DNA from: Allomuricauda sp.
Lineage (GTDB): Bacteria; Bacteroidota; Bacteroidia; Flavobacteriales; Flavobacteriaceae
Length of the DNA: 64,000 nucleotides
NCBI GenBank assembly: GCA_030148335.1
Contig: JASBTQ010000032.1
Span: 124,001-188,000 of the forward strand
Direction of reading: 5' to 3'
Under the pieces are notes generated by a model. That model saw only the letters and a program-made list of their open reading frames with translations, ran no database searches and had not been told where the DNA came from. The position numbers and the translations under genes were made by a program. The number at the start of each line of letters is the position of its first letter. Position 1 is the first letter of the stretch. Positions 5,693 through 62,502 of this stretch are shown piece by piece.

Positions 5693-8600
5693 TTAGAATG
5701 AAAGTTTAACATTAAGTCCGTAGGTACGGGTCATTGGGAAGGTCACGGATTCGATACCCATCATGATGTTTGAACCGTTCAGCATACCCGTTTCGGGGTC
5801 GTATTGGGGGAAGTCGGTCAAACAGAATACATTCGTCGCAAAAATCCCAAAACTCATGTCCTGGAAAATACCTGTGCTCTCCATTATTTTTCGTGGCATC
5901 TGGTAATCCAGCCGTAGCTCCCTCAACTTCAAGAAGTCGGTGCTGAAGGTGTTCATTTCGGTATTGTTCCTGTTCCAGATGTAGGCGTTGTAGTAGGTTT
6001 GGATGTTTTCTGTCACCGTTGTGTTCTTGGTATAGGTAACGGTGCCGTCCGTGTTTTCCACTACATTGACCCCTTCGTGGACCAATCCGTCATAACGGCC
6101 TTCCAAGGAGTTTTTGAGTTTTCCTTGATAGGAAAGCGCAAAATTGGTCACTGAATACGCATGTCCGCCCATTTGCGCTGAAAAAGATGCCGATAGGGAA
6201 AGGTTCTTGTATCTGAAACGCTGCGTCATACCTCCCCTCCAATCGGGGTTCACTTTGGCAATCTCGCGATCTGGGGATTCATCCAAGACAGGATAACCTT
6301 GGGAATTCACAATGTGCATTCCGGAAGCATCGACCGTTTCCCCATTTTCATCGATATAAGTAGCTCCTTCTGGTGCCCTTTGGAATCCACGACCATAAAT
6401 GTTGTGCATTTCACCACCCAAATAGGAATAGACATAGACCCTGCCGCCAATGGTTGTCCCCATATCGGTCTGTAGGGGTTCCTCAGGATCCCAACCTTCC
6501 TGCAGGCTGACCAAGGTGTTGTTGTTCTTGGACCAGTTGGCATCAAACGACCATTCAAAATCCTTGGTACGTATCGGGACAAATCCAGCTGCAATCTCAA
6601 TACCTTCATTGGTGATTTCCCCCGCATTGATGATCCTGCCGGTCGCACCGGTAATTTGGTCCACATTAACGGACACAATCTGGTCGGTTGTTGACGAATA
6701 ATACTTGGTGATGTCAAAAGACAATCTGTTTTTGAAGAACTTGGCCTCAAGTCCCACTTCCCAACTTTCGATGTTCTCAGGTTTGATGAGTGGATTCCTG
6801 ATAGTGCCCGGCAATACGTATCCACCTGGAAAAGAGGTGTTTCCGTAAGGTTGGGACAAAGAGTAGGCTCCGGTATCGTTACCTACGTTGGCCCATGAAA
6901 AACGCAACTTGGTGAAATCTATCCAAGGGGCGTTTGTCTGGAAGTCAAGGACTTTGTCAACAAGGACACTTGCTGCCACAGAAGGATAGAAGAACGACCA
7001 ATTGCCTGGGGACAAGGTGCTGGACCAGTCATTACGTGCGGTAACATCCAAAAAGTAAGTATCGTCCCAACCTAAGGACAACATGCCGTAAAAACTGTTC
7101 ACGACCTTTTTGCTCCTGTAGTTGTAATTGTCTGGATTGACCCCAGTGGGCAGGTTGGTGGTATGGTAGATGCCTTCCTCGCCCAATTGTTCCAAAGTAA
7201 TCCTGCTGTTGTAATATTCGTTCACCCTATTGTTTCCGCCCACAAAAGCTGAGAGTGTGAATTTTCCATCAGCCATGTCGTTGTTCTCGTAACGTAGCAT
7301 GAAGTCGTTGTTGTTCTCCAAATAACGCACGGTCTGTTCCCTATAAAAACCATTTTGGTAGTCCGTTGTGTAGAAGGGCCTGCGTTGTGTTCTAAACTCC
7401 GTGGACCAGTCCAGACCTGAACGAAGATCCAAAGAGAACCCATTTCCTAGATCAAAGTTCAGCCCAATGTTTCCAAACACCCTGTTCTTGTCGTGTGCAC
7501 TGAGGGCTTCATACAAGGTACGATATGGGTTGTATGAATTTGCAGAGGGGAATACCAGTCCCTGCCCGTTTTCACCTTGTGCAGACCAATTCAAGAAATT
7601 GTAACGGCCATCAAAATATTCGTTTTTCCAATCGTCAATACTGTTTACATTGAAGCCCCAGATCAAGGCATACATGGGATTGGACTCATCATAACCTCCT
7701 CCGGGCATGTTGTCGCTTCTTTTTCGATAGTAATTGACCTTGGAGTTCAAGGAAATCCAGTCATTGATAGGTGTGTTGAACGCTAAGGACACCGATTGAC
7801 GGTCAAACCCGGTGTTGGGCATGATCCAATCATTTTTGAAATCGGTGATGGAAAGCCTACTGGAAGTTCCTTCCCCATTGTTTCCATTGATGCTCACTGT
7901 ATTGATGGTAGTGACGCCCGTACGGAACAATCCAGTGTACCAATCGTCCTGATAGACCCAGGGCAATTTGGTGAATGTGCCGGTCTCCCAGTTTTTGGAG
8001 GCATATAGGTAACGCATCTTGTTCGGATCGAACCGTTCCCCAAACGTATATCTGGAGTAATTCCTGTTGGTGGGCACACCATCTGGAGCCATATCCTCTG
8101 TCAGTTCCCAAAGGGAATAGGGTTGTTGTCCCATATCGGAACCATTTCCATATTCTGTTTGGAAATCGGGGAAGAACCCTGCCTGTTCAAAACTTACGGT
8201 CGTGTTTACGGTAATGCCCAGTCCCTTTCCTTTTTTGCCGGACTTGGTTGTGATCATGATGGCGCCATTCGCTGCCCGAGAGCCATAAAGGGCTGCGGCC
8301 GCGGGGCCTTTGAGCACTGATACGGACTCTATGTCCTCTGGGTTGATATCGCTCAACCCATCACCAAAATCCACCGGGGCATCGGCCTGGGCATAGTTGC
8401 TCACCGCGCGAGTGGCTGTCATTCCGGAACTGATAGGCACACCATCCACTACGATCAGGGCTTCGTTGCCGCCATAATTCAATGACTGGTCTCCCCTGAG
8501 GGTTACACGAATGGAGCCACTGGGTCCAGACCCTGCCTGGGCAAAGAATAGTCCCGGAACCTTTCCGGACAGGCCGTTCATCCAGTTTCCAGAGACAGAT

Positions 8601-54072: not shown

Positions 54073-57057
54073 TCATTTAATGATCTTGCTTTCTGGTGGA
54101 CCCAAATAGCTCTCTGCATTTACGCCTTCTTTTTGCAACACCATCTTTTGCAGCACCACCCCGGGATCAACGGCCCAGTACTTTAGGGTGTGGGCTCCTG
54201 CGGACAGTTCTTTTTCAATTACGGTCTGTTTCATGATGTTGTCCTTTACCGCTTCGTTCCACCAAGTGGGGTAGGTCCAATCCGCTGCTGTGGCATCTTT
54301 GTGCAAGTTTACCATTTGCGGCGCATCGCCATCAATGGAAACGGCATAGATCAAACCTTCATCTTTTTGAAAATTGAGGGTAGGTGAAAAATAAGTGGTG
54401 AGACTATAAGTTCCTCCATCTAAAAGATAAACTTCATATTCCAAATAAGGGCTGTTTTCGCTTGGATTTTGTTTGGATGCGGTCACGGGCATGGAAGTTA
54501 TCGCCGATCCTGTGCGTCCCAAATTGGGTATGGTCTGCCATGAGACGTTAGCTGTTTCCTTGGCATTTTGATAATTCACTGCATCAATACTAACAATGCC
54601 GTTGTTCTCCACAAAACCAGTTATGCCTTCAGGAAGGTCATTTCGAATGGGGACGCTCACCTTTATGCCTTCTTCCGTATTGGCGGCGCTGATGACAATT
54701 TCCCCGGAAACCTGTCCTTTTGGGGCTTTGTCCCAATCAATGCTCACATAGACCTTTTCCCTATATTGAACGGTTCCTCCCGCTGAGGACAATTTTATCC
54801 AATCGTTTTCTGTGGTAATGGTATAGGTCAAAGCTTCTTTGCCCTTGTTGAAGATCTCTACATAATAGTTTTGATCGTTGATGGGGTCAAAAGTGGAAAA
54901 GCTGCGGCTGTTGAGCCCACTTGGAAGCCATCGGGACCTGGTGATGCCATTTTCCACCACGTGACCCAAATTGGCCTCGGTGCCGGATTGGATATAGGAC
55001 ACCGCAGGCATTTTATTGTAAGCGGGATCGCTCCAACTGATATGCCCCATGTGGGTCTGGGACATCATATGGTTCCATTTGCCATTGGCCACAGCATCGT
55101 GATAATAGGTTGTGAATTCAGCGTCTTTATAAAACAGTTCTTTTGTTTTATCGGCATAGAAATTGGTCGAGGCCCGGTCTTGAAATCCGTATAACCTGTT
55201 CTTGCCAGCAGCTACGTACATTTCGTTGAGGTTTGCACAGGCTTCCACCGGATATTGTAACAATTGGTAAAAAGCATCATGCGCTTCTTTGGGCAATTGT
55301 TCCTTCACTTTTTTTACTCTTTCCAAAAGGGAATTGTAATCTTCCACCATGTTTTCCGCTTCATTGAAGTTTTGAAGGCTGTACGTGGTCGGTTCTATCA
55401 ATTCCGGTTTTCTACGGGAATTGTATTTGGTGTACAATGCTATGATTTCTCCAATTTCTTTGGCATGCGTGGCTCCAAATTGATTTCGGGCCCATTCGGT
55501 ATAAAAATCGGGTAATTTTTCTGCAGGAAAGGCCTCTGGGTTCCAAGCATAATCCAAAAAGAAACTGATGGGAAATTCCATGGGCTTGATGTCGCCCACG
55601 TTCACCAACCAAATCTCATCCACACCGTAGGAGTAGGTGAGGTGCATTTGCTCCCATACACGCTCAATTTGGGTGGTGTTCAGCCATTTATAACTTCGGG
55701 GTCCGCCGACAAAATCAAAGTGATAGTACATGCCGTAACCTCCCTTTCGGGGTTCACTGTCCAAAGCGGGCAAAACGCGTACCTGTCCCCAGTTGTCATC
55801 ACAGAGCAAAAGCGTCACATCATCCGGAACCCGCATTCCCTTGTCATAATAATCCTGGACTTCTTTGTACAGTGCCCATACCTGAGGGGTTTCTTCAATG
55901 GGCCTGCCGGTGACTTCTTCAATGATCTCCCGCTGATCTTCCACTATTTTTTCGAGTAGGTCTATGTTGGTTCCTTCGCTCATGGCCTCGTCCCCATCTC
56001 CACGCATGGCAAGCGTCACGACTTTTTCCTGACCTTTTGAACGTTCCATGCCTTCTCTCCAGAACTCTTGGAGTTTTTTGGGATTCTTTTCATAATCCCA
56101 CGGACCTTCCCCATGCCGTTCCCATTCCACATGGGAGCGCATCAGGGGTTCATGGTGCGATGTGGCCAAAACCACCCCCATTTCATCTGCCAAGGGAGCA
56201 CTGGTCGGGTCGTCGTCCCAAAGCGACCTTCCCCACATGGCGGGCCACAGGTAGTTGCCCTTCATCCGAAGGATGAGTTCAAACACCTTTTCATAAAATT
56301 GCTTGTTGAAGTCCCCGTATTTTTCTGTCACCCAACCGGATAGGGCCGGAGCTTCATCATTGATAAAAATGCCCCTGTATTTCACTTTGGGCTCGCCAAG
56401 GGTATAGGTTTCTGGTTTTGCATAGATGTTTTTGCGGACCTTTATGGGAACATCGGCCCACCAATACCATGGTGAAACCCCCATTTGTTCTGAAAGGTCG
56501 AACATGCCAAAGATGGTGCCCCGTTTGTCGCTTCCAACGATGACCAATGCATTGTCCACCCCATCCATGGGATTTTGAACGGGAATGATCAAAAACTGCT
56601 CCCATTTGCCCTCCAGTTCGGTGACATCAATTTTGCCTTCTTGGGCCAACCTATCGATCAAACTGCTTTTGCCCACAGTGCCCACAATGATGAGGTTTTG
56701 TGTTTGATGTGCTTCACCCACGATCAGTTCCGGTTCTTGCCCTGAGACATGGCCTAGATCTTTTTGAAACATTCCGGCTATCCGTAGAACACCGGGATGA
56801 TCGGACTCACTGACCAAAATATTGGCAGGAACCCCGTTTTCAACCAATGTGAACCCACTTTTTGCCTTATCGGTTGTCAAGAATGAAGTTTCGGGAAAAG
56901 AATCTTCGGTAGGAAGGGTGTTTATTTTCACCAAATTGTTTGCTTCACCGCCGGTTTGTTGTGTTGGTTCTCCTTTGCAGGATACGAACACCAAAAGCAG
57001 GAGCAATCCTGCTAGGCAATGGGATATGAAAAAACGAAATCGTGTACTTATTTTCAT
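54073..57057 (-). CDS. Alpha-glucuronidase, glycoside hydrolase family 115
   Basis: A 994-aa enzyme that removes (4-O-methyl)glucuronic acid from internal as well as terminal xylose units of glucuronoxylan. Lipoprotein-type signal (FVSC). The diagnostic core is present: GVSPWYWWADVPI, KYRGIFINDEAPALSGW, FYEKVFELILRMKGNYLWPAMWG, HHEPLMRSHVEW, LLCDDNWGQVRVLP and WLVNVGDIKPMEFPI; a C-terminal beta domain (about 730-990) follows, as is usual in the family. It starts 24 bp after the GH10 stop and is co-transcribed with it. Confidence 0.96.
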   Translation of the reverse strand: MKISTRFRFFISHCLAGLLLLLVFVSCKGEPTQQTGGEANNLVKINTLPTEDSFPETSFLTTDKAKSGFTLVENGVPANILVSESDHPGVLRIAGMFQKDLGHVSGQEPELIVGEAHQTQNLIIVGTVGKSSLIDRLAQEGKIDVTELEGKWEQFLIIPVQNPMDGVDNALVIVGSDKRGTIFGMFDLSEQMGVSPWYWWADVPIKVRKNIYAKPETYTLGEPKVKYRGIFINDEAPALSGWVTEKYGDFNKQFYEKVFELILRMKGNYLWPAMWGRSLWDDDPTSAPLADEMGVVLATSHHEPLMRSHVEWERHGEGPWDYEKNPKKLQEFWREGMERSKGQEKVVTLAMRGDGDEAMSEGTNIDLLEKIVEDQREIIEEVTGRPIEETPQVWALYKEVQDYYDKGMRVPDDVTLLLCDDNWGQVRVLPALDSEPRKGGYGMYYHFDFVGGPRSYKWLNTTQIERVWEQMHLTYSYGVDEIWLVNVGDIKPMEFPISFFLDYAWNPEAFPAEKLPDFYTEWARNQFGATHAKEIGEIIALYTKYNSRRKPELIEPTTYSLQNFNEAENMVEDYNSLLERVKKVKEQLPKEAHDAFYQLLQYPVEACANLNEMYVAAGKNRLYGFQDRASTNFYADKTKELFYKDAEFTTYYHDAVANGKWNHMMSQTHMGHISWSDPAYNKMPAVSYIQSGTEANLGHVVENGITRSRWLPSGLNSRSFSTFDPINDQNYYVEIFNKGKEALTYTITTENDWIKLSSAGGTVQYREKVYVSIDWDKAPKGQVSGEIVISAANTEEGIKVSVPIRNDLPEGITGFVENNGIVSIDAVNYQNAKETANVSWQTIPNLGRTGSAITSMPVTASKQNPSENSPYLEYEVYLLDGGTYSLTTYFSPTLNFQKDEGLIYAVSIDGDAPQMVNLHKDATAADWTYPTWWNEAVKDNIMKQTVIEKELSAGAHTLKYWAVDPGVVLQKMVLQKEGVNAESYLGPPESKIIK

Positions 57058-58514: not shown

Positions 58515-60179
58515 TTGAAGAAAAAGATATTGTTTAGAATCATCGCTGCCGCACTTCCAATTATCCTGATTTTGTTGGTTGAGGTAGTTTTACGCCTCTT
58601 CGGATATGGGGAGGGATACCAGCTTTTCAATAGGGTGAGAGGGGAAAACGGGGTAGAGTACCTTGTTGTGAACCCCAATCTATCCAAAAAATACTTTAAG
58701 GACACTGATTTTAGAGCGGACAGTCAATCGGATCTGTTCCTGCGGCAAAAAACCGACAGTACTTTTAGGGTGTTTGTCCAGGGGGCTTCAACGGTGGTGG
58801 GGTATCCATTTTATCGGGGGGCCTCGTTTCCAAGGTTATTGAAGCATCGACTCTCCCGAACTTTTCCTGAGAAGAACGTTGAAGTGGTGAATACGGGAAT
58901 CACCGCCGTCAATTCATATACCTTGTGGGATGTAACGGACAAGATCATAGATCAGAAGCCCGATTTGGTCATCATTTATGCCGGACACAATGAGTATTAT
59001 GGTGCTTTGGGCGTGGGATCCTCGGCTTCGGTTGGGAGTCACCCCGTTTTGGTAAGGAGTTATTTAAAGCTCAAGAACCTTCGGTTTTTTCAACTGATTG
59101 AAAATGCTCTAACGGGCTTGATGGGTACAGGTGCCCAAAATAAGAAATCGGTTACCGAGACCACTTTAATGGAGGTCATGGCAAGGGAGCAGGAAATTCC
59201 GTTGAATTCAGAAGCCTTTACTGCTGGAATATCCCAATTTGAGGGTAATTTGAAACGAATTTTGAATAAATATGAACGTCATGGGATTCCAGTAATCCTT
59301 TCCACCTTGGTGTCCAATGAAAAGGATGTAAAACCTTTTATCAGCGATGATCTGGACAAAGAAAACTTTGTTGAATCAATAGAAAAAAACACACCGGAGG
59401 TGCATGAATTGGCACAGAATAATGCGGATGCCGCCTACATTTTGGGACAACACTATCTGGAGCGAAACCCAGATTCCGCCAAAAAGTACCTGCACCTAGC
59501 CAAAGAACTGGACTTGCTTCGGTTTCGGGCTCCGGAGAAAATCAATGAGGTGATTATGCTGCAGGCCCATGAGCGCAAAATACCTTTGGTAGATATGAAG
59601 AAAATATTTGAGTCAAAGGTACCCAATGGGATTCTAGGTGATGAATTGGTGGCCGAGCATGTGCACCCCAATGTGGAAGGTTATTTTGTAATGGCAGATG
59701 CTTTTTATGAGAAGGTAAAAGCGTTGAACCTATTGGAAAATTGGGAACATTATGTGCCTTATGAAGAGGCATTTGATGATATTCCAGTGACCCAAATCGA
59801 TTCGCTCAAAGGAAAATTGGCGGTGGAAATCCTTAAACAGTCATGGCCTTATGATTTGAGCATGTCCGGAACCAAACCGGTCGGGTACAATTATGTGACC
59901 CAAAACCCAGCCTTTGAGGAAAGAACCGCCATCAATCTACATAACCATCAGGGGCAATGGCAGTATCTAATTACGCAGGCTTACCACAAATACAATGAGG
60001 ATGGGGATTACAAAAAAGCCCTTAAAGTGGCCCAGACCTTAATTTTTGAGTTCCCGGAGCAGTTTAAAGTATATGAAATGGCAGGGGAGATGTGCCAGAA
60101 ATTAGGGGACGATGCCTATGCGGAATATTACTTTAAGAAAAGCCAGTATCTCAAGAGCATGAAAGCTTCACAGGAGTAA
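58515..60179 (+). CDS. Membrane-anchored SGNH/GDSL hydrolase-fold protein with C-terminal TPR region
   Basis: A 554-aa protein. The only sensible start is TTG at 58515: an in-frame stop lies at 58500-58502, no ATG precedes the hydrophobic anchor (residues about 5-25), and the resulting N-terminus MKKK is normal. SGNH landmarks: the block I Ser in VQGASTVVGYP near residue 96, NTG, the block III Asn in YAGHNEYYG near 157, and the block V His in AEHVHPNVEGY near 380. The C-terminal ~90 residues look like TPR helices (GDYKKALKVAQTLIFEFPEQ). It converges on the carbamoyltransferase-DUF5989-SxtJ operon (15 bp between stops); saxitoxin clusters also pair these with a GDSL protein (SxtL). Substrate unknown. 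Confidence 0.8.
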   Translation: MKKKILFRIIAAALPIILILLVEVVLRLFGYGEGYQLFNRVRGENGVEYLVVNPNLSKKYFKDTDFRADSQSDLFLRQKTDSTFRVFVQGASTVVGYPFYRGASFPRLLKHRLSRTFPEKNVEVVNTGITAVNSYTLWDVTDKIIDQKPDLVIIYAGHNEYYGALGVGSSASVGSHPVLVRSYLKLKNLRFFQLIENALTGLMGTGAQNKKSVTETTLMEVMAREQEIPLNSEAFTAGISQFEGNLKRILNKYERHGIPVILSTLVSNEKDVKPFISDDLDKENFVESIEKNTPEVHELAQNNADAAYILGQHYLERNPDSAKKYLHLAKELDLLRFRAPEKINEVIMLQAHERKIPLVDMKKIFESKVPNGILGDELVAEHVHPNVEGYFVMADAFYEKVKALNLLENWEHYVPYEEAFDDIPVTQIDSLKGKLAVEILKQSWPYDLSMSGTKPVGYNYVTQNPAFEERTAINLHNHQGQWQYLITQAYHKYNEDGDYKKALKVAQTLIFEFPEQFKVYEMAGEMCQKLGDDAYAEYYFKKSQYLKSMKASQE

Positions 60180-60194
60180 ACCTTACTCTGACAC

Positions 60195-60554
60195 TTACCA
60201 AGGATTGTCGATGTCTTTGCTGGAATAGTGGTGGTTGCGATGATGAAAATAAGTGTTCCCGTTTGTTTTGCGTCGAATCTGATTGTTGCCAAACAAACGT
60301 TGTAAGAACGCCAAGGGAATCAAAATAAAATGGAAGATGATGAACATCAACACAAAGTTCATCACAATGCCCAGATAATGTGAGAGGCCCAGCCATATTT
60401 TGGCAATGGCCATTGAAACACTCTTGGAGATAATGCCGATGGCCATAAAAGCAATGGCGACATACCCCAACCAGTCCACATTCAGCCATAGGGAGATTAT
60501 GAGCGATGCAAGCGCCAAAACAAGGATGGTCTCAAATGCTTTTTCCCGGGTCAT
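60195..60554 (-). CDS. SxtJ-family small membrane protein
   Basis: A 119-aa protein with about three hydrophobic helices (residues about 8-25, 27-45 and 57-88) and a polar C-terminal tail ending HHYSSKDIDNPW, which is typical of the SxtJ family. Function is not established; SxtJ homologues are found beside O-carbamoyltransferase genes. Its ATG overlaps the stop of the 49-aa DUF5989 gene (TAATG), so the two are translationally coupled. Likely an accessory membrane subunit for the carbamoyltransferase; inferred from conserved adjacency only. Confidence 0.82.
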   Translation of the reverse strand: MTREKAFETILVLALASLIISLWLNVDWLGYVAIAFMAIGIISKSVSMAIAKIWLGLSHYLGIVMNFVLMFIIFHFILIPLAFLQRLFGNNQIRRKTNGNTYFHHRNHHYSSKDIDNPW

Positions 60555-60703
60555 TAAAATAGGGTATAAATAAAGGGTGCCAATGCGGAACTACTGGTCA
60601 GATAAATAAGGATGCCAAATAGTACAAATATGATGATCAAAGGGACCAACCACCACTTTTTGCGCTCTTTTAGAAATAGAAAGAATTCTTTTAAAAACTC
60701 CAT
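60554..60703 (-). CDS. DUF5989-family (SxtK-like) single-helix membrane peptide, 49 aa
   Basis: A very short gene read directly on the minus strand: ATG at 60703, stop TAA at 60556-60554. The peptide begins MEFLKEFFLFLKERKKWW, has one hydrophobic helix (about residues 19-36) and ends LTSSSALAPFIYTLF, which I recognise as DUF5989. It is held between the carbamoyltransferase stop and the SxtJ start by single-base overlaps on both sides (TAATG), strong evidence that it is real and translated. Function unknown; one membrane helix and fixed position suggest a small subunit of a membrane complex with the neighbours. Confidence 0.88.
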   Translation of the reverse strand: MEFLKEFFLFLKERKKWWLVPLIIIFVLFGILIYLTSSSALAPFIYTLF

Positions 60704-62502
60704 TATTTTTCAATTACATAATTTTCCAAAACCAAAATATCCATACCTGAGTTGATGAAACATTGATAAGCATCCTCTGGCGTGTTTACAATGGGCTCAT
60801 CCTTAACATTAAAGCTGGTGTTGATGAGCACTCCGTTCCCTGTCAATTTTTTAAAGGCCTGCAGTAGACTCCAAAATGTGGGGTTGACTTCTTTCTTGAC
60901 CACCTGTACCCGGGCTGAACAATCCACGTGGGTTATGGCGGGCAAATCGGATTTAGGGGTTCTACGCTTTTCTTCCAGACTAAGTTCGTCAAAATTTTTG
61001 GGCAGGGGTTTTCTGAGGGATTCCTTCATGGGATTTGTGAACAACATATAGGCCGAATGTTTGCCTGGCTCAAAATAATCCTCATAATCCTCTTCGCAGA
61101 CTGCTGGGGCAAAAGGACGAAAGCTTTCCCTAAACTTGATTTTTAGGTTGAGCTTGGACTGCATTTCAGGGTCTGAAGGGTCTGCAAGGATGCTCCGATT
61201 GCCCAACGCCCTTGGGCCAAATTCAGTACGTCCCCTAAACCATCCCACCACTTTTTTATCGGCGATATGTTGTGCGGTTAGTTGTAGAAGTTCATCGGTG
61301 GATTCAAAATGTTGATGGGAGCATTTGTGTTTGCGCAACAATCGTTCTATTTCTAAATTGGAATAACATGGGCCCACATAGGGGTTGAACGCTTTTTTAA
61401 GGCCAGTGAAGTTCAAATCTTGTTTTAAATGGGCAGTGGCCAATGCTGCCCCAATGGCCCCTCCGGCATCACCTGCAGCGGGCTGTACATAAATATCCTT
61501 AAAAATGTTTTCATTGAATATTGCCGAATTTGCAACACAGTTCAGGGCAACCCCTCCGGCCAAGCACAAATAGTCTGCTTGTGTTTCCTTTTTAATGTGA
61601 TGGGCCAGCTTATGGACGATTTCTTCCAAAACCTTTTGTGCAGCAAAAGCCAAATCGGCATGCATTTGCGTTAAGGGCTCATCGGTTGTTCTTTTTTTGA
61701 ATCCGAAGAGGGTTTCCCATTTTTTTGGATTGACCATCCGTAAACCAACGGGATATTCAAAATAGTCCATGTTCAGTTTGATGGAACCATCGGCTTTGAT
61801 GTCCACCAATTTTTCTTTGATAATGGCAACAAAATTTTGTGCAGCTTTGGAGTTGTGGTTACTGTAGGGGGCAAGGCCCATCATTTTGTATTCCCCGGAA
61901 TTCACTCTAAATCCCAAGAAATAGGTGAAGGATGAATAAAATAGTCCCAATGAATCTGGAAAATGGAGTTCTCCCAATACTTCAATTCCTTTGTCACCAG
62001 AAGCCAACCCATATGAGGTTGTTGTCCATTCACCAACCCCATCTACGGTCAAAAATGCACTTTTGGGAAATGGAGAGGTGTAAAAAGCACTGGCTGCATG
62101 GGATAAATGGTGCTCTGGAAATACAATGGAAATTTTTTGTGCATGTGGTCCGCCGATTTTTTTCAGTTGTTTTCGGATTACCTGCTTTGTAAAGAGTTTT
62201 TCCTTCAACCAAACGGGCATTGCCATGGCAAATGAACGAAAGCCTTTGGGTGCAAATGCGTAGTAGGTTTCCAGAAGCCGTTCAAATTTTAGGAAGGGCT
62301 TATCATAGAATGCTACGTAATCGAGGTCTTCAAGGGCATATCCAGATTCGGTCAGGCAAAATTGAATGGCTTCCGCAGGAAAGGAAGCATCATTTTTTAT
62401 CCTTGAAAACCGTTCTTCCTGGGCGGCATACCTTACTTCGCCATCCACAATTAGTGCAGCGGCAGCGTCGTGATAGTAGGCAGATATTCCAAGTATCTTC
62501 AT
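60703..62502 (-). CDS. Carbamoyltransferase (NodU/CmcH/SxtI family)
   Basis: A 599-aa enzyme that transfers a carbamoyl group from carbamoyl phosphate to a hydroxyl group of a small molecule or glycan. The start at 62502 (MKILGISAYYHDAAAALI) matches the family; an ATG/alternative start upstream to 62544 would add 14 atypical residues. N-terminal Kae1/YrdC-associated-type domain: EERFSRIKNDASFP, FPEHHLSHAASAFYTSPF (metal-binding HxxxH) and FLTVDGVGEW; C-terminal domain: CLAGGVALNCVANS, GDAGGAIGAAL, GRTEFGPRALGNRSILADP, and NTSFNVKDEPIVNTPEDA. It is first in the operon with DUF5989 and SxtJ (1-bp overlaps). The acceptor is unknown. Confidence 0.95.
   Translation of the reverse strand: MKILGISAYYHDAAAALIVDGEVRYAAQEERFSRIKNDASFPAEAIQFCLTESGYALEDLDYVAFYDKPFLKFERLLETYYAFAPKGFRSFAMAMPVWLKEKLFTKQVIRKQLKKIGGPHAQKISIVFPEHHLSHAASAFYTSPFPKSAFLTVDGVGEWTTTSYGLASGDKGIEVLGELHFPDSLGLFYSSFTYFLGFRVNSGEYKMMGLAPYSNHNSKAAQNFVAIIKEKLVDIKADGSIKLNMDYFEYPVGLRMVNPKKWETLFGFKKRTTDEPLTQMHADLAFAAQKVLEEIVHKLAHHIKKETQADYLCLAGGVALNCVANSAIFNENIFKDIYVQPAAGDAGGAIGAALATAHLKQDLNFTGLKKAFNPYVGPCYSNLEIERLLRKHKCSHQHFESTDELLQLTAQHIADKKVVGWFRGRTEFGPRALGNRSILADPSDPEMQSKLNLKIKFRESFRPFAPAVCEEDYEDYFEPGKHSAYMLFTNPMKESLRKPLPKNFDELSLEEKRRTPKSDLPAITHVDCSARVQVVKKEVNPTFWSLLQAFKKLTGNGVLINTSFNVKDEPIVNTPEDAYQCFINSGMDILVLENYVIEK

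Follow-up and report, generated by a model that had tools for sequence, protein, structure and literature searches.

Organization of the Four-Gene Module

The DNA analyzed here is a stretch of 64,000 nucleotides from Allomuricauda sp. (contig JASBTQ010000032.1, positions 124,001 to 188,000; hereafter the window), and the present work concerns a module of four genes within it, which encode a class III carbamoyltransferase (CT), a DUF5989 microprotein, an SxtJ family membrane protein and an SGNH/TPR protein. The CT (599 aa; 60703..62502, minus strand) is matched by the Pfam families PF02543 (295 bits) and PF16861 (237 bits), and it is followed on the same strand by the DUF5989 microprotein of 49 aa (60554..60703; PF19451, 85.5 bits against a cut-off of 27) and by the SxtJ family protein of 119 aa (60195..60554), whose PF19588 score of 25.4 bits is barely above the cut-off of 24.4. 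The consecutive genes overlap by one base in the sequence TAATG, the A of which is common to both genes, at 60703 (CT/DUF5989) and at 60554 (DUF5989/SxtJ). The fourth gene lies on the plus strand (58515..60179), where it converges on the other three across a gap of 15 bp, and it encodes a protein of 554 aa with an N-terminal membrane anchor that is recognized by Lipase_GDSL_2 (38.2 bits, cut-off 32.9); for the TPR part of this protein only Pfam scores below the cut-off were obtained. This arrangement had been described in an earlier reading of the sequence alone (the original prediction), and both the single-base stop/start overlaps and the converging SGNH gene are confirmed by the coordinates and the Pfam families. 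The genome of the window, which is 84 per cent complete, contains a single match each for DUF5989, SxtJ and the CT. A scan for promoters and terminators revealed no excess over chance (11 vs. 9.8 and 6 vs. 5.5, respectively).

Co-occurrence and Linkage of the Four Families

Each family was searched for in one set of 296 genomes from the window's phylum. DUF5989 was scored as present above its own cut-off, SxtJ at E ≤ 0.001, the SGNH protein at E ≤ 1e-5 and the CT at a score of at least 270 bits; this last cut, which divides a high group of CT scores (106 genomes) from a lower group, was set after the scores had been seen. DUF5989 has a match in 71 of 140 genera. Based upon these thresholds, the CT is present in 103 of the 104 genomes with DUF5989 vs. 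3 of the 192 without it. The corresponding numbers are 93 and 0 for SxtJ and 92 and 1 for the SGNH protein, and all four families are found together in 83 genomes. In 19 genomes where the best listed CT scored 68 to 260 bits, DUF5989 and SxtJ were both absent. The contrast family MBOAT showed little association with DUF5989 (47/104 vs. 63/192, p 0.04). A second phylum, that of a Nitrospiraceae metagenome-assembled genome (L121), was searched for the CT and SxtJ in 158 genomes with the 270-bit cut fixed beforehand, and here the CT was detected in 49 of the 50 genomes with DUF5989 vs. 5 of the 108 without it, and SxtJ in 48 vs. 2. The gene-neighbourhood check that the original prediction had proposed thus shows, with few exceptions and in two phyla, that DUF5989 and SxtJ go together with a single CT subfamily, and its idea of a general module that includes the SGNH protein is upheld by the distribution of that protein in the window's phylum.

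The exceptions in the window's phylum are informative. The sole genome with DUF5989 and no CT (G047) has a DUF5989 match with an internal stop, close to a contig end. Among the three genomes with a CT and no DUF5989, one locus (L186) begins inside the CT at a contig edge, while the other two (L184 and L185) carry a single gene that fuses SxtJ to a diverged DUF5989-like part, and the CTs of all three nest within the module clade of the CT tree. In the only genome that has the SGNH protein without DUF5989 (G226), CT and SGNH remnants lie side by side (L053), which is the pattern expected from a deletion within the module; they consist of an N-terminal part of the CT (7830-8018) and an N-terminal part of the SGNH gene with one stop (8034-8516). 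Twelve DUF5989 genomes lack a match to the window's SGNH protein, and in five of these the module contains a short SGNH protein. In genome G174, where the CT is below the cut (260 bits; L187), it adjoins an SGNH gene, DUF5989 is absent, and the CT branches as a weakly supported (97/54) sister to the module clade.

With regard to linkage, 68 of 105 DUF5989 places lie within 10 kb of a CT, on the same strand every time. No DUF5989-CT, DUF5989-SxtJ or SxtJ-CT pair is found within 10 kb at 20 of the 105 places, and both partners are present in 19 of these 20 genomes. Many of the unlinked cases are draft genomes, where separate contigs are not necessarily distant from each other; G030 and G179, however, are single-contig genomes, and in these more than 200 kb separates the CT, SxtJ and DUF5989 from one another. 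In five draft genomes (G035, G082, G176, G019, and G148), the CT and SxtJ are on one contig and DUF5989 and the SGNH gene on another, and in G249 a second DUF5989 copy adjoins a second SGNH copy. As the gene set is retained when it is dispersed, the association exceeds mere gene neighbourhood.

Named loci were also compared from many phyla. In the best 80 of 264 of these, the CT was present in 70, SxtJ in 70, the SGNH protein in 56 and all four in 53; for the 46 of them with full flanks the numbers are 42, 42, 34, and 33, respectively. For the ten named loci without a CT, a CT of more than 310 bits is present elsewhere in six genomes, and none was found in four metagenome-assembled genomes. 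The SGNH gene lies within 400 bp of the CT 26 times, of DUF5989 21 times (19 on the same strand) and of SxtJ 18 times, in counts that leave out the window and 11 near relatives. The partnership of the four genes rests on statistics, and based upon them we regard it as nearly certain that the four proteins function together.

The DUF5989 Microprotein and Its C-Terminal Motif

The DUF5989 microprotein has a single transmembrane segment (residues 19-37). Over 111 loci its mean charge is +2.6 for residues 1-18 vs. -0.1 for residues 36-49, and due to this charge pattern the peptide is predicted to be oriented with its N-terminus inside and its C-terminus outside. The transmembrane part is variable among these loci and both ends are fixed. 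At the cytoplasmic end, R14-K15-K16-x-W18-L19 is kept in 105 to 110 of the 111 loci, while in the C-terminal sequence P43-F44-I45-Y46-x-L-F49 the residues P43, F44, and Y46 are present in all of them, and the peptide ends in F.Y..F followed by the stop in 110 loci and in F.Y..Y in one. In the window this ending is the hexapeptide FIYTLF (F44-Y46-F49; 60557..60574, minus strand), which immediately precedes the stop and has the codon for Tyr46 at 60568-60566. All 120 of the listed database matches (of 248) also end in F.Y..F. Both of these sets are biased toward the motif, as LAPFIYTL was one of the six search words used for the loci and the database matching also depended upon shared words. Among loci found with the Pfam profile, the ending was present in 30 of the 30 best matches and in 30 of 30 of a second set, with some overlap of genomes. 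As a check on the bias, 20 low-scoring DUF5989 places from two phyla were inspected; two of them, profile matches below the cut-off, turned out not to be DUF5989, and of the 18 that are, 12 have FxYxxF and the other six end in P[LA]IY[TS][VI]F. Hence, all 18 low-scoring members retain the Tyr and the last Phe, and the first Phe is not strictly conserved. The F.Y..F ending was found in only 1 of 1061 neighbouring open reading frames, which encodes an MBOAT. The second phylum also has five diverged DUF5989 copies (L206-L210), which end in PAIYS[VI]F; four of them are from genomes (G450, G314, G417, and G434) that possess a typical copy as well.

FxYxxF is described as an acyl-shuttle motif, present in DltX and at the C-termini of MBOATs, from the Tyr of which an SGNH transferase receives an acyl group; in PatA the motif lies at the end of the MBOAT and acetyl is handed to the SGNH protein PatB, for which an acetylated FIYANF peptide has been used as a donor (PMC12148441). 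In the window's phylum, the 30 top-scoring MBOATs (one per genome) were compared, and 25 of them end in F.Y..F, mostly as FIYFQF. The remaining five (L154, L157, L170, L173, and L176) end in PIYLQF, with the Tyr and the last Phe kept and the first Phe lost. A profile comparison aligned 34 columns of DUF5989 with the C-termini of MBOATs (41 per cent, vs. 1 per cent for a control stretch), a likeness that is suggestive only. A Pfam search with DUF5989 (E ≤ 1) gave no match to the model of DltX, a protein of about 50 residues; only DUF5989 itself and one chance family were matched. No open-licence paper naming DUF5989 was found.

The possibility that an MBOAT is a hidden fifth partner of the module was ruled out, since 57 of the 104 DUF5989 genomes have no match to this family (PF03062); the module is therefore not dependent upon an MBOAT. 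The window's genome has three MBOAT matches, none of them at the module. An MBOAT ending in FIYFQF (L068, 11758-13239) was noted within the module locus of G275, between DUF5989 and the CT, and G283 also has an in-locus MBOAT.

The Carbamoyltransferase, SxtJ, and SGNH Proteins

Class III CTs are cytoplasmic enzymes that use ATP to activate carbamoyl phosphate to carbamoyl-AMP. The module CT comprises a Kae1-like N-domain and a YrdC-like C-domain, and its relatives in the PDB include NovN (9s2t), GdmN (7vyj), and TobZ (3ven). Its residues H131, H135, D154, and D345 are kept in 94 of 94 module CTs and in 20 of 20 comparison CTs, and the metal ligands of GdmN are likewise two His and two Asp (H133, H137, D156, and D333; PMC9633730). 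The module CTs form a clade of their own (100/96) with 24 private conserved positions. Based upon these sequence features, the same reaction is predicted for the module CT.

The SxtJ protein has three hydrophobic segments (residues 6-24, 32-50, and 61-79), and its AlphaFold2 model has a pLDDT (predicted local distance difference test) of 90.8 and a pTM (predicted template modelling score) of 0.59. A structure search with this model returned no PDB match at E ≤ 10, a result that is not proof of a new fold. A protein search gave 17 close relatives of SxtJ with no fusion among them. Natural fusions of the SxtJ-DUF5989-like type, neither of which is recognized by Pfam, are present at L184 (7555-8142) and L185 (7219-7773), where they end in NYTLY and TYTLY; they were found in two genomes that had seemed to possess a CT without DUF5989, and three further database proteins are of this fused type. 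We propose that SxtJ acts as a scaffold or gate between the CT and DUF5989. In the SGNH protein, the residues of interest are Ser92 (58788-58790, plus strand), Asn159, and His384; its catalytic residues are conserved and its closest structural matches are esterases. By analogy with the acyl-shuttle systems, it is proposed to be an extracytoplasmic carbamoyl transferase.

Genomic Surroundings

The scan of the flanks covered 12 proteins between 38645 and 63999, with the 994-aa open reading frame at 54073-57057 and the part of the window left of 38645 outside its scope. This region is a glucuronoxylan-utilization locus encoding an SSF transporter, an FGGY kinase, LacI, UxaC, GH67, UxuA, GH43, a SASA esterase, GH10, and SusD. 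The module sits between GH10 and SusD, and the genes for GH67, GH43, the glucuronate isomerase, the mannonate dehydratase and the SASA-type esterase lie farther to the left of it than GH10. The 12 flanking proteins belong to carbohydrate use, transport and regulation, with no toxin biosynthesis genes among them, and in this respect the original prediction, which saw the module as standing without toxin genes, is correct. It had also placed the module near surface polysaccharide genes; for the scanned flanks, a surface-polysaccharide synthesis locus is ruled out, the neighbours being genes of xylan utilization and uronate catabolism instead. Within the clade, 14 loci (the window included) have the SusD neighbour, and hence the module and the polysaccharide utilization locus may travel together; the related loci L080, L081, and L082 carry the module outside that SusD cluster.

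Neighbours of the module were further scanned at loci L089 to L153 (178 of 188 proteins, in batches of 84 and 94), a set that excludes the window, all loci below L089 and the near-duplicates L110, L112, L148, and L149. The commonest recurring neighbours are glycosyltransferases (Glycos_transf_1, 10/178) and carbamoyl-phosphate synthase (CPSase_L_D2, 6/84 in the first batch); in the second batch (94 proteins), CPSase_L_D2 is absent from the list of the 25 commonest families. Genes for the large chain of carbamoyl-phosphate synthase are directly beside the module at L036, L041, L115, L097, and L108, and at the last two of these loci two halves of the large chain flank it. Exosortase (PF09721) matches, in 3 of 94 neighbour proteins, hint at a link with PEP-CTERM/exopolysaccharide loci in some lineages.

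Proposed Mechanism and Alternative Explanations

On balance, we favour by analogy a mechanism in which the CT and SxtJ replace an MBOAT, Tyr46 of DUF5989 carries the carbamoyl group and the SGNH protein transfers it to a glycan or lipid of the envelope. The cytoplasmic CT would activate carbamoyl phosphate and ATP to carbamoyl-AMP, and the three steps that follow are inferred. Membrane attachment of the CT would be provided by SxtJ and by the basic, cytoplasmic N-terminus of DUF5989. On the outer side of the membrane, Tyr46 within the FIYTLF tail of DUF5989 would then receive the carbamoyl group, so that the CT and SxtJ take the part played by the MBOAT in Dlt, Pat and alginate acylation. From O-carbamoyl-Tyr the group would move to Ser92 of the anchored SGNH protein and onward to an envelope glycan or lipid, as suggested by DltX/DltD and PatA/PatB. 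The original prediction had the CT recruited by two small membrane proteins. Its membrane-associated unit is supported by the co-occurrence, but, given its terminal acyl-shuttle hexapeptide, DUF5989 is more plausibly a covalent carrier than a recruiter. The main gap in this mechanism is the crossing of the membrane by the carbamoyl group, as the CT is soluble and SxtJ has no catalytic signature.

In the chief rival explanation, SxtJ and DUF5989 tether the CT, which carbamoylates a lipid or lipid-linked sugar on the cytoplasmic side; the product is flipped, the SGNH protein acts on it separately outside, and the FxYxxF end is a docking peptide rather than a carrier. The soluble-type nature of the CT, its intact acceptor domain and the presence of glycosyltransferases (Glycos_transf_1) among the neighbours are consistent with such inner-leaflet modification, which we consider possible but doubtful; it leaves unexplained why the most conserved part of DUF5989 should be its last residues, which are predicted to be on the outer side and constitute an acyl-shuttle motif, and also why the SGNH gene is tied to the set. 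The SGNH protein could alternatively be a decarbamoylase, an activity proposed for SxtL in the saxitoxin literature (PMC2679770) and compatible with a fold nearest to esterases. A near-obligate pairing of a maker with a remover is, however, less parsimonious, and the SGNH gene adjoins DUF5989 in places where the CT is not (the five draft genomes with split contigs and the second copy in G249), which makes this role improbable.

A function within the surrounding xylan locus, e.g. in modifying xylan-derived sugars or the uptake machinery, appears very improbable. Although a SusD gene adjoins the module here and at 13 further loci of the clade, the module is present at L080, L081, and L082 without that cluster, and SusD/xylanase families are not in the top 25 of either neighbour batch (L089 to L153). 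Lastly, the FxYxxF ending could be a coincidence and the co-occurrence a result of shared ancestry only. DUF5989 lacks a DltX-family match, genomes of one clade are not independent and the search words favoured the motif. We nevertheless give this explanation hardly any credence, as the pattern holds in two phyla, with half of the genera matched in the first (71/140), the partners are retained though their genes lie far apart, the ending is nearly absent from the background reading frames (1/1061), and the Tyr and last Phe persist in every low-scoring member (18/18).

Comparison with Known Systems

What is new here is the breadth of the gene set, its strict co-occurrence and the shuttle motif. 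The module provides a testable role for DUF5989/SxtK, SxtJ, and the linked SGNH protein, which are families of unknown or guessed function, and the proposed mechanism predicts a covalent intermediate, O-carbamoyl-tyrosine. If it is correct, the acyl-shuttle mechanism would extend beyond MBOATs and to a new chemical group, carbamoylated envelope polymers would be expected in many phyla, and four genes of the saxitoxin clusters would be recast as parts of a widespread system independent of toxin making. No open-licence paper was found that combines SxtJ, SxtK, and polysaccharide, and none among the matches listed joins acyl shuttle, SGNH, and carbamoyl.

The CT of the module shares with TobZ, GdmN, and NovN both domains and the metal-site residues, whereas its separate clade, the 24 private positions and the membrane partners set it apart. 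In the saxitoxin clusters, sxtI, sxtJ, sxtK, and sxtL are adjacent, with the functions of sxtJ and sxtK unknown and sxtL a proposed decarbamoylase, and their printed sizes are 1839, 405, 165, and about 1280 bp (PMC2679770); these four genes are shared with Lyngbya and/or Trichodesmium, as another paper noted (PMC2684587). By this published description and by the Pfam names, the four families are the same as those of the module, as the original prediction had held, and the printed sizes agree with those of module genes. The sxtI-L order CT-SxtJ-DUF5989-SGNH is also observed elsewhere, e.g. in the cyanobacterial locus L118. Unlike the saxitoxin clusters, the window's module is without a toxin-cluster context in the scanned flanks and its SGNH gene is of a longer form and convergent.

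Like the module, the Dlt system (DltB, an MBOAT; DltX; DltD, an SGNH protein) pairs an SGNH protein with a stand-alone membrane microprotein, the extracellular C-terminus of which bears FxYxxF (PMC12148441). In contrast to Dlt, the module set has no MBOAT and no acyl-carrier protein, the CT and SxtJ standing in their place, and DUF5989 has no match to the DltX model. MBOAT-SGNH O-acetylation (PatA/PatB, alginate, cellulose) also involves a membrane protein that terminates in FxYxxF, but in the module the motif is on a free microprotein and the donor would be carbamoyl, not acetyl-CoA. Of the acyl-shuttle features, the module has the predicted outward FxYxxF and, as a partner, an SGNH protein that retains the catalytic Ser and His, whereas an MBOAT that loads the Tyr is missing. 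Whether the module represents a third transmembrane group-transfer system beside MBOAT-SGNH and AT3-SGNH is, in our judgement, evenly balanced: in such a system, found in many phyla, a Kae1/YrdC CT and a three-helix protein would load a DltX-like Tyr from which the SGNH protein transfers the group, and sxtI-J-K-L would be a recruited copy of it, in which SxtK would be the carrier and SxtL the transferase.

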